From assembly GCA_029243605.1 (NCBI GenBank), contig JAQWRT010000010.1, forward strand, positions 1 to 64,000: DNA of 64,000 nucleotides, read 5' to 3'. Under the pieces are notes generated by a model. It was not told where the DNA came from, searched no databases, and saw nothing but the letters and a program-made list of their open reading frames with translations. Of the stretch, positions 46,580 through 52,318 are shown in pieces. Each line of letters opens with the position of its first letter. Within the stretch, counting starts at the first letter, position 1. The translations under genes were made by a program, and so were the position numbers. Source of the DNA: Myxococcota bacterium. GTDB lineage: Bacteria > Myxococcota_A > UBA9160 > UBA4427.

Positions 46580-48820
46580 ATGAAAAACGAAACGACCCGC
46601 AAGGTTTTCCGCACATGCTCGCTCTGCGAGGCGACATGCGGACTCGAGCTTGAGATCCAGGGCGACCGCGTCATCAAGGTTCGTGGCGACGCCGAAGACG
46701 TCTTCAGCGGCGGATATATCTGCCCCAAGGGCACCGCGATCGCCCGGGTTCACGAAGATCCCGACCGCCTGCGCAGCCCCTTGGTCAAGCGCAACGGAAA
46801 ACATGTCGAAGTCAGCTGGGATGAGGCCTTCGCGGAGATCGAGAAACGCCTTCTTCCCATCATGGAGAAGAATGGTCGGGACTCCGTGGCCGCCTACCTG
46901 GGCAATCCGAACGTTCATAACCTGGCGGGCGCCTTCTACGTCCGGCCCGTCCTGAAAGCTCTCGGAACCCGCAACATCTACTCTGCGAGTACGGTGGATC
47001 AGATTCCCCGGCACGTTTCCTCGGGCGCCCTCTTCGGAGCACCCGGCACCATCCCGGTGCCCGACCTCGATCGAACAGATTTCCTGCTGATGCTCGGGGC
47101 CAACCCCCTGGAATCCAATGGGAGCCTCTGCACCGCTCCCGATTTCCCCGGCCGGCTCAAAGCGATCCAGAAACGCGGCGGCCGCATCGTCGTAATCGAT
47201 CCTCGGCGTACCCGAACCGCGCGTCTGGCGGACGAGCACCTTTTCGTGCGACCCGGGAGCGATGCCCTGGCCCTCGCGGCCATGATTCATACCCTCTTTG
47301 AAGAAGATCTCGTCGATCTCGGCTCCGTGGCCGAGCACATCAATGGACTGGACGAGGTGCGAGTCGCCGTCCAACCCTTCTCCCCCGAACGCGTCGCCGA
47401 GCGGTGCGGCATCGAGGCCGGGGTCCTCCGTCGACTGGCCCGGGAACTCGCAGCCGCCGAGCGAGGCGCGGTCTACGGCCGGATCGGGATCCACACCGTA
47501 AGCTTCGGGACCCTCGCGTCCTGGGCCACCGATGTGCTCAATATTCTGACGGGGAATCTGGATCGACCCGGTGGCTCCATGTTTCCCAAGGCCCCGGGTT
47601 CCCGGGCGCAACAACGCGCGGGCGGGCGAGGTTTTGCCACGGGTCGCTGGAAGAGCCGAGTGCGCGAGTTGCCCGAGGTCATGGGCGAATTCCCCGTGGC
47701 GACCCTGGCCGACGAAATGGAGACCGACGGCGAAGGTCAAGTTCGCGCCCTGGTCACCATCGGGGGGAACCCCGCACTCTCTACCCCCGATTCCGAACGC
47801 CTAGAAAAGGCCATCGAAAACCTCGACTTCATGGTGAGTGTCGACATTTACTGCAACGAAACTACTCGGCATGCCGACGTCATCCTGCCCCCGCCTTCGC
47901 TCCTCGAGCGCGGGCACTATGACCTCTCCTTCGCCAGCCTTGCCGTCCGCAATGTGGCCAACTACTCGCCACCGGTTTTCGAAGCCCAGGGGCCCAGCGA
48001 AGCGGTCATCCTGGCGCGGCTCGCCGGGGTGATCGGCGGCCAGGGAGCCGATGCGAAGCCCGAAGCGATTGACGACATGATGCAGCGGGGGCTGATCGAA
48101 GGGCACATCGCGAACCCCGAGTCCCCCATTCACGGCGCGGTGGTCGACGAAGTGCTCGCGCGCGTTTCCGGGAGACCCGGACCCGAAGCCCTTCTCGACA
48201 TCATGCTGCGCATGGGCCCCTACGGTGACGGATTTGACGACTCGGCCGAAGGGCTCTCCCTGGAACGCCTTGAGGCTCGGCCGCACGGTATCGACCTCGG
48301 CCCCCTGGAGCCGCGAGTTCCCGAAATCCTCTCCACTCCCTCGGCGCGAATCGAGTTGGCGGGAGGCGATATTCTCACCGAACTCGATCGACTCGACCGA
48401 GTGCTCGCCGAAGCCGAACCCGAGGGCCTGCTCTTGATCGGCCGGCGGCACCTGCGCTCGAATAATTCCTGGATGCACAACGTGGAATCCCTGGTCAAGG
48501 GCCAGGCTCGCTGCACCCTCCAGATGCACCCGGACGATGCCCGGGAGCGGGAGCTCGCGAACGGCAGCCTCGCCTCAATCGCGTCCCGGGTGGGCCAGAT
48601 CGCGGCCCCGGTGGAAATCAGCGACGATCTCATGCCGGGGGTCGTCTCACTCCCCCACGGCTGGGGACACGGCCAACCCGGGAGCCGGCTTTCCGTGGCC
48701 GCAGCCCATCCCGGGGTCAACAGCAACCGCCTCACCGACGGCCGCCCCCTCGACCCCCTTTCGGGGAACGCCGTGCTCAACGCGATCCCGGTGGAGGTCT
48801 CGGCCCCGAAACCGAGTTAG
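46580..48820 (+). CDS. Molybdopterin (bis-PGD) oxidoreductase
   Basis: The 746-residue protein has the N-terminal [4Fe-4S] motif C13-x2-C16-x3-C20 plus C48 (TCSLCEATCG...ICPKG). It also has DMSO-reductase-family segments such as RIVVIDPRRTRTA, GNLDRPGGSMFPKAPG and FMVSVDIYCNETTRHADVIL. The C-terminal MopB domain has LLIGRRHLRSNNSWMHN and LPHGWGHGQPGSRLSV. There is no Tat signal, so it should be cytoplasmic. The Mo ligand and substrate were not assigned. An electron-transfer partner is not adjacent. Confidence 0.9.
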   Translation: MKNETTRKVFRTCSLCEATCGLELEIQGDRVIKVRGDAEDVFSGGYICPKGTAIARVHEDPDRLRSPLVKRNGKHVEVSWDEAFAEIEKRLLPIMEKNGRDSVAAYLGNPNVHNLAGAFYVRPVLKALGTRNIYSASTVDQIPRHVSSGALFGAPGTIPVPDLDRTDFLLMLGANPLESNGSLCTAPDFPGRLKAIQKRGGRIVVIDPRRTRTARLADEHLFVRPGSDALALAAMIHTLFEEDLVDLGSVAEHINGLDEVRVAVQPFSPERVAERCGIEAGVLRRLARELAAAERGAVYGRIGIHTVSFGTLASWATDVLNILTGNLDRPGGSMFPKAPGSRAQQRAGGRGFATGRWKSRVRELPEVMGEFPVATLADEMETDGEGQVRALVTIGGNPALSTPDSERLEKAIENLDFMVSVDIYCNETTRHADVILPPPSLLERGHYDLSFASLAVRNVANYSPPVFEAQGPSEAVILARLAGVIGGQGADAKPEAIDDMMQRGLIEGHIANPESPIHGAVVDEVLARVSGRPGPEALLDIMLRMGPYGDGFDDSAEGLSLERLEARPHGIDLGPLEPRVPEILSTPSARIELAGGDILTELDRLDRVLAEAEPEGLLLIGRRHLRSNNSWMHNVESLVKGQARCTLQMHPDDARERELANGSLASIASRVGQIAAPVEISDDLMPGVVSLPHGWGHGQPGSRLSVAAAHPGVNSNRLTDGRPLDPLSGNAVLNAIPVEVSAPKPS

Positions 48821-48970
48821 GCCGGCGGCGGAAACTTCCCCTCGGGGAAGAAGAGAGGGGGCCAAGCGTTGGCTCCATGGCGCCGACTTGGGAATCCCGG
48901 CCCGGAGACCAAGTGTGCTTGACGCCCTGGGAAAATTCGGCACACTCAAACCGGAACTCAACTCCGGTCT

Positions 48971-49645
48971 GTGATTATGCCCCCGACAGATACCTCCCTC
49001 CAGTGGATTCGCCCGGCGCGCCAGGCGCGAACCCAGCAGACCCTCGAACGGCTGCTGGACGCGAGCGAACTCCTTCTCCAGGACAAGGGCTTCGACGATA
49101 TCCACGTAAGCGAGATCGCCCTGCGAGCGAATACCTCGGTGGCCAGTTTCTACCGACGCTTCAAGGACAAGAACGCCCTGCTCTACTCGCTTCACGAACG
49201 CTTTACTCTTGCCGCGATGGCGACTGCCGACGACGCACTCGACCCGAACCGCTGGGCCGACTCGAGTATTCGGGAAATTCTCGAGAGCTTTTTGCCCTTT
49301 CTCATCGAGGTTCTTCAAAGCCAGAGCGAATTGCAGCGCGCTGTCTATCGAATCGCCCTCTCCGATGAGTCCATTCGCGAGCTCTCCAACAGACTCCGCC
49401 ACGACGTCCTCAGCGGTGTCTCCCGATTATTGCTCGCCCGAAGGTCCGAGATCCGGCACCCGGAACCCGAGAGCGCCGTTCCCTTCGCCCTAGTTCAAGC
49501 CGCTGCCCTGCTCACCGAGTGGTACCTGACGGGCATGAAGGACACATCCATTCTTCACCTGACCGATCGGCAGATCGCCAACCAGATTGTTCAATCCTGT
49601 TGCAGCTACCTGGTTACCTGCAACGCTGAAACCCAAGAAGCGTAG
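48971..49645 (+). CDS. TetR-family transcriptional regulator
   Basis: The 224-residue protein has an N-terminal TetR helix-turn-helix (RTQQTLERLLDASELLLQDK, FDDIHVSEIALRANTSVASF and YRRFKDKNALLYSL) and a helical ligand domain without close recognisable matches. It is 12 nt upstream of two ferritin-like genes on the same strand and is likely to regulate them. The signal is unknown. An alternative ATG is at 48977. Confidence 0.86.
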   Translation: MIMPPTDTSLQWIRPARQARTQQTLERLLDASELLLQDKGFDDIHVSEIALRANTSVASFYRRFKDKNALLYSLHERFTLAAMATADDALDPNRWADSSIREILESFLPFLIEVLQSQSELQRAVYRIALSDESIRELSNRLRHDVLSGVSRLLLARRSEIRHPEPESAVPFALVQAAALLTEWYLTGMKDTSILHLTDRQIANQIVQSCCSYLVTCNAETQEA

Positions 49646-49657
49646 AGGAGAGAGACC

Positions 49658-50617
49658 GTGAAACGTTTTATAGATCATGAGGAGTTGGCTCGGGATAGCC
49701 GGTTTATCCGTCAGGATGCTGCCCAGGCCAACGTAATTTCCAGCCTGCCTGATGACGTCGAAACCGTAGTCAACGTTTTCGAACAATTCGGTCCCATCAT
49801 CGAAGCGGGTGTCAGAGGCACTTCGGCGGAGCCGCTCTTCGAAGAACTCGGCCCGGGTTTCATGCTCACGGTTCTCAACGAGCCCCTCGACCCCGACGCC
49901 CCCGCAGCCGTTCCGCGCCTTCTGCTCAGAATGCATGGCATTTTCGTCGGTGAACTGCAGGCTCTCGAGGGTGCGGCCCGGTCGCTTTGGGATTTTCCCG
50001 ACGCGCCCTGGGAATTTAAAATGAACATGGCTCGGCAATGCTGGGACGAGGCCCGTCATCTTCAGATTTTCGAGAAACTCCTCGTTCATCTGGGCGGACA
50101 TGTCGGCATGTATCCGGAAAGCACCTTTCTCTTCGAAGCTTGCTGTAGCGAAGATCCCGCCATGCGGGTTGCCGGGGTGAACCGTGGTCTCGAAGGGCTC
50201 GCTTGCGATGTTTTCCGCGACATGATCCGCTTCGCTAACAAGACGGGTGATGAAGTCATGAAGCAGGCCGTTGATTACGTTCTCGCGGATGAAATCACCC
50301 ACGTGCGATTCGGAAGTGAATGGGTGAAGGAATTCACGAAGGACAACCCCGAACACCTCAAACGAACTCAGGATTTCCGCCGTGAGGTCGACAAGCGCTT
50401 CAGCTTTGGCGGAGCCCGATCCGACCGTGAGGATGCAGCGATCCCCATTGCCCGAGAAGATCGCCTCGAGGCCGGCTTCACCGAAGAAGAGCTCCAGGAA
50501 CTCTCGGAGATCTCCGGGGTGGGGCCGTCGAAGAAGACCCTCAGCGAAGCCGCTCAGATCCTGCGTGACCGGTATCACGAGACCCGCAAAGCCCAGCAAG
50601 AGGGGGCATCCTCATGA
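49658..50617 (+). CDS. Ferritin-like diiron protein, DUF455-related
   Basis: The 319-residue protein has an all-helical core with a complete ferritin-like diiron set: E99 and E104 (GELQALE), E131-x-x-H134 (WDEARHLQIF), E179 (NRGLEGLACDVF) and E212-x-x-H215 (DEITHVRFG). This matches DUF455 and related ferritin-like families; whether it is an oxidase, oxygenase or iron store is unknown. The GTG start has AGAGGAGAG before it. It follows the TetR gene by 12 nt and overlaps the next ferritin-like gene by 4 nt (ATGA), so the pair is translationally coupled. Confidence 0.8.
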   Translation: MKRFIDHEELARDSRFIRQDAAQANVISSLPDDVETVVNVFEQFGPIIEAGVRGTSAEPLFEELGPGFMLTVLNEPLDPDAPAAVPRLLLRMHGIFVGELQALEGAARSLWDFPDAPWEFKMNMARQCWDEARHLQIFEKLLVHLGGHVGMYPESTFLFEACCSEDPAMRVAGVNRGLEGLACDVFRDMIRFANKTGDEVMKQAVDYVLADEITHVRFGSEWVKEFTKDNPEHLKRTQDFRREVDKRFSFGGARSDREDAAIPIAREDRLEAGFTEEELQELSEISGVGPSKKTLSEAAQILRDRYHETRKAQQEGASS

Positions 50618-51297
50618 GCGAACGAATGTACCCCGGACTCACTCAGGAAGAGCGAACCGGATTTGCTCCCTATTCGGCCTTTGATATCCCCGCCGACCTG
50701 CGCGAGTTGCATGGTCGATACGATGTCGAAGCCACCGCCCTTCGGGTTCGCAATTTTCGCTACGCGGAAGAATGGATGGTGATGATGATGGGGGGTTGGG
50801 TCGCCACCATTCCCGAGATCCCCGTCAAAACCGGCCTTGGCAAAGTCATCTGGGAAACCGCTCAAGCCGCCGACGAGTTGGGGAAGCGCCTACCCGAACT
50901 CCGCTGCGGGCGGAAATCTCTCGAAGCGAGCGAGGCGCCGAACACTGCATTCGCCGATTTCATTCAGGAGGTCAGCAACCCAGAGACACCGGACCTGACC
51001 ATCGAGAAATTGTCTGGAGTTTTCGATGTCCTGATTCCGCACCTGGTCGAGATCTACGAAATGCACAACCGCGAAACCGATGCCATCTGCGATGCGCCGA
51101 CCATCGAAATTCTCGAACACATGGTTCGGCGTAAGCGTCAGCACATCCAGTGGGGTCAGGAAGTTCTCGACGCTCTCTGCGATGACGACGAGACCCAGCA
51201 GAGGCGACGCGATCGAGCAAACCAACTCTCGGGACTTCTCAAAGAGAGTGGCGGCGTCACGGGTGTACTCGAAACGGGTCAAGCCTCACTCAATTAG
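50614..51297 (+). CDS. Second ferritin-like protein with degenerate metal site
   Basis: The 227-residue helical protein appears to be a divergent partner of the preceding diiron protein. Candidate ligands E53 (RYAEEW), E81-x-x-Q84 (WETAQAADELGKRL), E146/E149 and E168/H177 (ILEHMVRRKRQHIQWGQ) follow the ferritin spacing. However, the ExxH pairs are altered (Q in place of H at 84, and no clean second ExxH). It may be a non-catalytic subunit or bind metal differently. I do not recognise a named family. The ATG overlaps the upstream TGA. A terminator follows. Confidence 0.72.
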   Translation: MSERMYPGLTQEERTGFAPYSAFDIPADLRELHGRYDVEATALRVRNFRYAEEWMVMMMGGWVATIPEIPVKTGLGKVIWETAQAADELGKRLPELRCGRKSLEASEAPNTAFADFIQEVSNPETPDLTIEKLSGVFDVLIPHLVEIYEMHNRETDAICDAPTIEILEHMVRRKRQHIQWGQEVLDALCDDDETQQRRRDRANQLSGLLKESGGVTGVLETGQASLN

Positions 51298-51335
51298 GGG
51301 CTTAGGCAATACCCGAAAAAAAAGAGAGCAACCAG

Positions 51336-51367
51336 GGGGGCGGCGTTAGCGAACGTCGCCCCCTTTT
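51336..51367. terminator. Bidirectional terminator between ferritin-like and DUF2889 genes
   Basis: A 12-bp stem with one G-U pair (GGGGGCGGCGTT at 51336-51347, AACGTCGCCCCC at 51352-51363) and a 4-nt loop is followed by TTTT on the plus strand. A run of eight A (about 51316-51323) lies on the other side. It serves the ferritin-like operon and overlaps the stop of the convergent DUF2889 gene. Confidence 0.8.
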
Positions 51368-51954
51368 GTGTTCGAGAACCAAATTCGACGCACAGGCATC
51401 TTCTGCCCTCGCATTTTCAGGGGCGTGGCCTTCTCGGCGACCAATCCAGCCCTCTCTTCGTCGTAGGAAAAGCATGTGTTCCGCATGCCAGGAATCGAGT
51501 TCAATACATTCTTGTGTCGCTCTCCCGGGTTGTCCTCTGCCTCGCGCTGCTCCTTCGGAATCGCCGAAAAATGCCGGACGAAATGCAATTGGTACGCCGC
51601 CTGGGCGATCTCAACCACGAGCTCGGAAACCCTGTGGCAGCCGCCGCGCCCACCCACCTGCTTTCTCGCGAGGCCAGTAAAACCCGCCTCTACTCGCATC
51701 CCCACAAGCTTTTCGATATTGGGGTGAGACATATTGCAGATATTGGTGAAGGGCCCATTTCGGATTTCCGATCGAGCGGCCACAATTTCAAGGGAGGGGT
51801 GAATAATCTCGACCTCGGCATGCACATCGTGGATTTCGTCCTGCAAGAAAGCAGCGATCAGAAATCGGTCTGAGCCAAGCGGATATATATCCACCTGTTT
51901 TTTTCGGTGGTAGATCGAGGTGACATCTCTTTCGGTTTTTTCGATTTCAGGCAT
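51346..51954 (-). CDS. DUF2889 family protein
   Basis: The protein is about 202 residues from the ATG at 51954. It has the DUF2889 pattern: a variable N terminus, HDVHAEVEIIHPSLEIVAAR, a short Cys-containing loop (NGPFTNICNMSHPNIEKL), VGMRVEAGFTGLARKQVGGR, then GGCHRVSELVVEIAQAAYQ. The family has no established biochemical activity. The upstream open-frame extension to 52029 would overlap the Rieske ferredoxin gene and is rejected. It is co-directional with that gene (31 nt apart) and probably co-transcribed. Confidence 0.8.
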   Translation of the reverse strand: MPEIEKTERDVTSIYHRKKQVDIYPLGSDRFLIAAFLQDEIHDVHAEVEIIHPSLEIVAARSEIRNGPFTNICNMSHPNIEKLVGMRVEAGFTGLARKQVGGRGGCHRVSELVVEIAQAAYQLHFVRHFSAIPKEQREAEDNPGERHKNVLNSIPGMRNTCFSYDEERAGLVAEKATPLKMRGQKMPVRRIWFSNTKGGDVR

Positions 51955-51985
51955 CTGCCCATTAACGCGAAGGAGTGAGCCCTCG

Positions 51986-52318
51986 TCAAGGCTTCTCGGC
52001 TTTTCGAAGCGGGCCGATCCGAAGCACATTTCCCGTGCGTTCTACCGAAAAGACCCCCAGGGACGAGCGACCGGGCAACTCGAGCGCCCTGCCGCTACGG
52101 ACATCGAAGACCGCTCCGTGGGAGACGCACTCGAGTTCGCATCCGCGCAGGCTTCCCGTATCAAGAGGAATATCCGCATGGCTGCATCTGTTTTCGACTG
52201 CGTAGAATTCTCCGTCGACGTTGCAGACCAGCACGGAGATCTCACCCCAGCGGAAGGCCTTCATCTCACCCGGAGCGAGACCTTCGACTTCGACCTCTAA
52301 TTCTTTCATCGCTGACAC
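51986..52318 (-). CDS. Rieske-type [2Fe-2S] ferredoxin
   Basis: The 110-residue protein has the complete Rieske ligand set C45-x-H47 (ENRCSHAD) and C64-x2-H67 (LECVSHGAVFD), and no catalytic domain. This fits the soluble BphF/NirD-like ferredoxins that carry electrons to Rieske oxygenases. GTG 52318 is the start, with AGGAGG 7 nt upstream; an ATG at 52309 is also in frame. It is the only stand-alone Rieske ferredoxin in the window, and three Rieske oxygenases lack adjacent partners. Confidence 0.92.
   Translation of the reverse strand: MSAMKELEVEVEGLAPGEMKAFRWGEISVLVCNVDGEFYAVENRCSHADIPLDTGSLRGCELECVSHGAVFDVRSGRALELPGRSSLGVFSVERTGNVLRIGPLRKAEKP

Follow-up and report, generated by a model that had tools for sequence, protein, structure and literature searches.

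Organization of the Locus

Within the 64,000-nt window, the whole stretch of DNA that was analyzed, a tight operon on the forward strand contains, in order, the gene for a TetR-family regulator, two overlapping genes for the ferritin-like proteins referred to here as A and B, and a Rho-independent terminator (Table 1). The preliminary description of this DNA had reported three open reading frames in this arrangement, and its account of their junctions is confirmed: 12 nt separate the TetR stop (49645) from the GTG start codon of A (49658), and the A and B genes share an ATGA at 50614–50617. The terminator, which had been called strong, is present and folds with an energy of −35.3 kcal/mol (z −3.8). 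The regulator gene itself was called correctly, though with a start at GTG 48971; judging from its relatives and from the position of a conserved palindrome, ATG 48977, directly behind that palindrome, is probably the start codon.

Table 1. Features of the TetR-A-B operon (positions within the window).
Feature	Position	Strand	Description
Promoter-like element	48919..48947	+	TTGACG (48919–48924), 17-nt spacer, ACACTC (48942–48947); read from the sequence
Operator-like palindrome	48950..48968	.	ACCGGA-N7-TCCGGT; between promoter-like element and TetR start
TetR-family regulator	48977..49645	+	TetR_N helix-turn-helix domain (PF00440), E 7e-11, 42.2 bits vs. cut-off 24
Protein A gene	49658..50617	+	DUF455 ferritin-like diiron protein, 319 aa; PF04305, 94.9 bits
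A-specific loop	50423..50446	+	Within FSFGGARSDREDAAIPIA, ~residues 256–263; in 35/35 A, missing from A2
Protein B gene	50614..51297	+	Degenerate ferritin-like putative partner, 227 aa; no Pfam/NCBIfam family
Rho-independent terminator	51334..51365	+	14-pair stem, T-rich tail; closes the operon

Apart from TetR, no neighbor of A-B is conserved across the ~34 loci compared, where neither a conserved reductase, ferredoxin, or coupling/bridging subunit nor conserved iron or stress genes were found. The acyl-CoA ligase and molybdopterin oxidoreductase genes upstream are common to close relatives only. Guilt by association thus offers no route to function: A and B, joined in one family by TetR, are all that is kept. 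The molybdopterin oxidoreductase (46580–48820, same strand, just upstream) resembles formate dehydrogenases and nitrate reductases, its best NCBIfam matches falling far below cut-off; it is retained within the genus and by a few relatives. The same limited range holds for the genes convergent with the operon at 51346–52318 on the reverse strand, which encode a DUF2889 protein and a Rieske ferredoxin-like protein and are not conserved with A-B; the Rieske protein could serve as an electron donor.

Protein A Carries a Complete Set of Diiron Ligands

A search against DUF455, suggested in the preliminary description, places A above the cut-off of that family (E 7.8e-27; cut-off 34.3 bits), for which the literature searched yielded no function. 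Seven residues (E99, E104, E131, H134, E179, E212, and H215) are invariant among 35 A sequences, which upholds the earlier reading of a complete diiron set with two ExxH motifs, E131xxH134 and E212xxH215. The predicted ligand pattern, E / ExxH / E / ExxH, is that of diiron four-helix bundles, with E99 or E104 as the candidate helix-1 ligand. In the AF2 model of A (pLDDT 82.7, pTM 0.79) the candidate ligands sit on four long helices, predicted at residues 84–112, 118–144, 167–196, and 199–226. Foldseek searches with this model returned aldehyde-deformylating oxygenase (ADO) as the top match (E 3e-3, probability 1.0), with bacterioferritin and R2-like oxidases also at the top (E 3e-3 to 2e-2, probability near 1). 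At the level of sequence families, A scores 13.7 bits against the ADO family PF11266 (cut-off 28), and neither A nor B matches PF02332 or PF05138. Searches of PDB sequences with A gave matches to Crov588, which were rejected as internal-repeat artifacts, and otherwise only weak ADO and R2 matches. The dN/dS of A relative to its nearest relative is 0.082. By sequence, A is a divergent subgroup of DUF455.

A paralog of A, designated A2, is ~55% identical to it and retains a complete set of ligand equivalents, invariant in the 26 A2 sequences. It occurs in 26 of the A-bearing genomes, usually at a locus of its own without an adjoining B, though one genome has the order A-B-A2 (G084) and in another A-B faces A2 (G064). 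Since A2 has the same ligands and usually no B beside it, not every protein of the subfamily requires a B partner. A is further marked by the conserved loop FSFGGARSDREDAAIPIA, whose core of ~8 residues is absent from A2. In at least five genomes, A2 is directly followed on the same strand by a glutathione S-transferase/glutaredoxin-like gene (L041, positions 644–2426 of contig C75 in the window's own genome; L100, L102, L104, and L120), a possible redox or conjugation partner.

Other ferritin-like genes were encountered in genomes of the class. An A-related ferritin-like open reading frame (E 7e-4) lies slightly beyond the window on its contig (G000:C73:65549-65917), and tandem pairs of ADO-like ferritin proteins, here X and Y, occur in ~40 genomes of the class independently of A-B (for example L085, 7269–8947 of G072:C145; L084; and L124). 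X and Y are ~38% identical, and in the copies read both proteins are complete in their diiron ligands; the first gene is closest to A and the second slightly closer to B.

Protein B Is a Degenerate Ferritin-Like Relative

Protein B matches no family in Pfam or NCBIfam and, by this measure, is a new family. The B of the window has no DUF455 match and the best B orthologue reaches only 14.3 bits (cut-off 34.3), while two orthologues give sub-threshold DUF455 matches (E 0.03 and 0.07) at the last helix. A profile built from 24 B sequences was run over the class and then over a phylum sample of 379 genomes, where beyond B proteins it reached three distant proteins only (E 4e-5, 8e-5, and 4e-4, per genome). 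The three come from a single family of canonical ferritin-like proteins, with alignments that cover most of B; the A profile also picks up proteins at those loci, and one of the distant proteins exceeds the Pfam cut-offs for Ald_deCOase (aldehyde decarbonylase), MiaE_2, and Phenol_Hydrox. These matches relate B by sequence to the ferritin-like superfamily and, with the weak DUF455 matches of the two orthologues, support its earlier description as a degenerate ferritin-like protein. A direct but shallow comparison of the A and B profiles by hhalign gave a probability of 5.6% with the aligned region as expected.

Aligned to canonical ferritin-like proteins, B has lost four of the six diiron ligands. 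Helix 2 has lost both its glutamate (to T/G/D/S) and its histidine (to A/S/T), WDEARH becoming WETAQA and variants; the glutamate of helix 3 is replaced by K/I/M and that of helix 4 by T/K/H/R. The helix-1 glutamate E52 (30/34) and the helix-4 histidine H177 (33/34) are retained, and E53 and H143 are each conserved in 34/34. The preliminary description had characterized B by an E-x-x-Q motif; the degeneracy it pointed to is a conserved feature, whereas the motif itself (E81-x-x-Q84) is not, E81 being present in 25/34 and Q84 in 22/34, and it lies one residue off the ligand register.

The structural model of B is of low confidence (mean pLDDT 60.8, pTM 0.62), with much of residues 1–106 below 50. 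Most of its Foldseek matches are to proteins of the ferritin superfamily or to bundles like them, the best being the B chains of the toluene 4-monooxygenase (T4MO) hydroxylase (E 0.14, probability 0.99); this likeness to chain B, the non-catalytic subunit of that enzyme, is suggestive only. The sole PDB sequence matches obtained with B, to phage portal proteins, were spurious. Compared with its nearest relative, B has a dN/dS of 0.071; purifying selection thus acts on it as strongly as on A, which rules out a decaying pseudogene.

Co-inheritance and Distribution of A and B

Across 91 genomes of the class, 36 encode both proteins, one has an A fragment only, none has B only, and 54 have neither, so that B is present in 36 and A or A2 in 37. 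In the single exception without B (G010), the A fragment lies where a 3.1-kb contig ends, and B never occurs without A or A2. The Fisher p for co-occurrence is ~1e-24, a value that is overstated because genomes were counted as independent. A and B adjoin in 34 of the 36 genomes, once in the reversed order B-A (G057), and lie apart in the other two (G063 and G078). A survey of this kind had been proposed with the preliminary description, and its outcome agrees with a linked gene pair. Over the same 25 genomes, the distances of A and B correlate at 0.71, compared with 0.45 for A and A2 and 0.53 for B and A2. The pairing is beyond chance, because the genes are kept together in 34/36 genomes under dN/dS values of ~0.07–0.08.

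The wider phylum sample showed A or strong B matches in the same genomes and no others, and on these surveys the pair is confined to a single class of uncultured myxococcal bacteria known from metagenome-assembled genomes (MAGs). A scan of GTDB species genomes with B, whose reach is limited to close relatives, found 12 loci, nearly all in MAGs labeled Myxococcota, Myxococcales, or Deltaproteobacteria. A and B are thus a real, class-restricted, and co-inherited pair of a catalytic-type and a degenerate ferritin-like protein.

Proposed Local Regulation by TetR

The operator-like palindrome is found at the same place in all 12 TetR-A-B loci, behind a TTGAC-type promoter-like element and ahead of TetR, exactly in eight and with one or two arm mismatches in the others, and its fuller consensus is AAACCGGAATCnGATTCCGGTTT. 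ACCGGA-N7-TCCGGT has a single match within the 64,000 nt, and a comparison of five genomes of the genus places the palindrome at one shared locus in all five, this one only. Upstream of A2 it is absent in the genomes with this TetR, which rules out a shared operator for A-B and A2. Since a sigma-70 scan of the locus did not call the promoter-like element, its designation follows from conservation: a TTGACG/TTGACA-type box also lies upstream of TetR at five further loci (L029, L030, L031, L042, and L045).

The start codon of TetR was chosen by comparison with relatives, and its dN/dS relative to the nearest relative is 0.31. TetR stands at the head of the operon only in the window's own family, where the 12 loci were examined; outside it, A-B occurs without this TetR, which is therefore a local regulator and not a core part. 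The simplest reading is a self-repressing TetR acting at the candidate operator palindrome. The earlier proposal of local regulation would accordingly apply to this one family, with its TetR and operator-like palindrome, and not beyond it.

Proposed Function and Alternative Explanations

We favor, with a probability of about 0.55, a reading in which the TetR-A-B operon represses itself and encodes a diiron enzyme of two subunits, B being a beta-like partner without a metal site. A would hold a diiron or Mn/Fe center inside its four-helix bundle and activate O2 to oxidize a substrate, probably hydrophobic or of acyl type. B, a diverged ferritin-fold relative, would bind A and stabilize or shape it, a role like that of PaaC toward PaaA or, in bacterial multicomponent monooxygenases, of beta toward the catalytic alpha subunit. 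TetR would occupy the palindrome that lies past the promoter and ahead of its own start codon, and would leave it in response to an inducer, perhaps the substrate. The preliminary description had likewise suggested a heteromeric diiron oxidase or oxygenase; the relationship of B, the ligands of A, and co-occurrence support this in part, and from them we infer the heteromer and its activity. The subunit reading is favored by the gene overlap, the shared terminator, co-inheritance, adjacency, the distance correlation, and the ferritin-fold relationship. Its main weakness is the absence of a linked gene for an electron-transfer partner, and further points against it are the hhalign result, the pLDDT of the B model, the two genomes with non-adjacent genes, and the occurrence of A2 without B. 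That the pair constitutes an undescribed heteromeric diiron oxidase/oxygenase, in which a catalytic subunit of DUF455 type is combined with partner subunits of a new metal-site-less family, independent of the multicomponent monooxygenases and confined to one class, is a more tentative claim, for which we judge the odds somewhat below even.

Several of the same observations bear on whether B is a subunit at all. A could be a self-sufficient diiron oxidase or oxygenase, with B a separate, co-expressed accessory, such as a maturation factor, an adaptor for substrate or electron carrier, or a regulator, that forms no stable heteromer with it. The close paralog A2, ligand-complete and usually alone, fits such an arrangement, as does the maintenance of B away from A in two genomes, and BoxB, a homolog of PaaA, functions without a structural subunit (PMC4498308). 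We nevertheless consider an accessory role rather unlikely, given that the overlapping genes, near-perfect co-inheritance, and ferritin-fold relationship favor a subunit, and that a conserved loop of A is missing from A2. The conservation of E53, H143, H177, and E52 would also fit a remodeled, for example mononuclear, metal site in B formed from E53, H143, and H177, making both proteins redox active. H143, however, misses the aligned ligand position by two residues, the B model is too low in confidence for distances, and the conserved residues may equally reflect the fold or an interface, so that such a site appears improbable.

Two further explanations carry little weight. A ferritin-type role in iron storage or oxidative stress, raised in the preliminary description as an iron-linked stress protein, finds no support in the sequences; it would suit the superfamily fold and the bacterioferritins among the structural matches of A, yet A, with 319 residues, falls in DUF455 rather than ferritin, bacterioferritin ranks no higher than ADO and R2lox, and the regulator is a TetR at a locus without conserved iron or stress genes, all of which makes this role very doubtful. 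Least probable of all, in our estimate scarcely credible, is that B is an unrelated helical protein whose ferritin likeness arises by chance from helical composition. The lack of a Pfam family and the low hhalign probability would be expected in that case, but the three distant profile matches all fall in one canonical ferritin-like family over most of B, the A profile extends to proteins encoded at those loci, the two sub-threshold DUF455 matches lie in the expected region, and the Foldseek matches of B are mostly of the same superfamily or similar bundles.

Comparison With Known Systems

In methane and toluene monooxygenases, a non-catalytic beta subunit of ferritin fold partners the catalytic alpha subunit, and known multicomponent monooxygenases carry a reductase, ferredoxin, or coupling protein in the operon. 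The best structural matches of the B model fall in this group (T4MO, methane monooxygenase, phenol hydroxylase), namely on T4MO hydroxylase chain B, whereas A-B has no sequence match to it, A is smaller than the alpha subunits, and no gamma subunit, effector, Rieske protein, or reductase shares a common operon with the pair. Cyanobacterial ADO (PF11266) is the best fold match of A and has the same ligand layout, though A lies below the cut-off of that family; we know of no degenerate partner subunit for ADO. With DUF455, A and A2 share all ligands and exceed the cut-off, yet they are divergent from the better-scoring DUF455 proteins of the same genomes (95–103 vs. 149 bits in the window's own genome).

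The PaaA and PaaC subunits of phenylacetyl-CoA epoxidase are 17% identical, adopt the same fold, and associate in a stable heterodimer in which PaaA, with ligands E, ExxH, an acid, and ExxH, is catalytic and PaaC is thought to be structural (PMC4498308). A-B likewise pairs a ligand-complete member with a relative of probably the same fold; it differs in having no PF05138 match and no linked PaaB or PaaE (reductase) gene. On its own, PaaA is insoluble. The X-Y tandem pairs resemble A-B as two adjacent ferritin-like genes on the same strand, distant relatives of A and B, except that X and Y keep the full ligand set while B has lost its metal site.

Judged by the models of those families, A-B stands outside the multicomponent monooxygenase, PaaA_PaaC, ADO, and ferritin families, and by analogy it may work like the multicomponent monooxygenases or PaaA_PaaC. 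A co-inherited pair in which one metal site is kept and one lost provides a clean handle on DUF455. If B is a dedicated subunit, the pairing of a catalytic with a structural ferritin-fold protein would have evolved a further time, apart from the multicomponent monooxygenases already known, and the X-Y pairs, with both sites intact, would show a possible state before the loss of the metal site.
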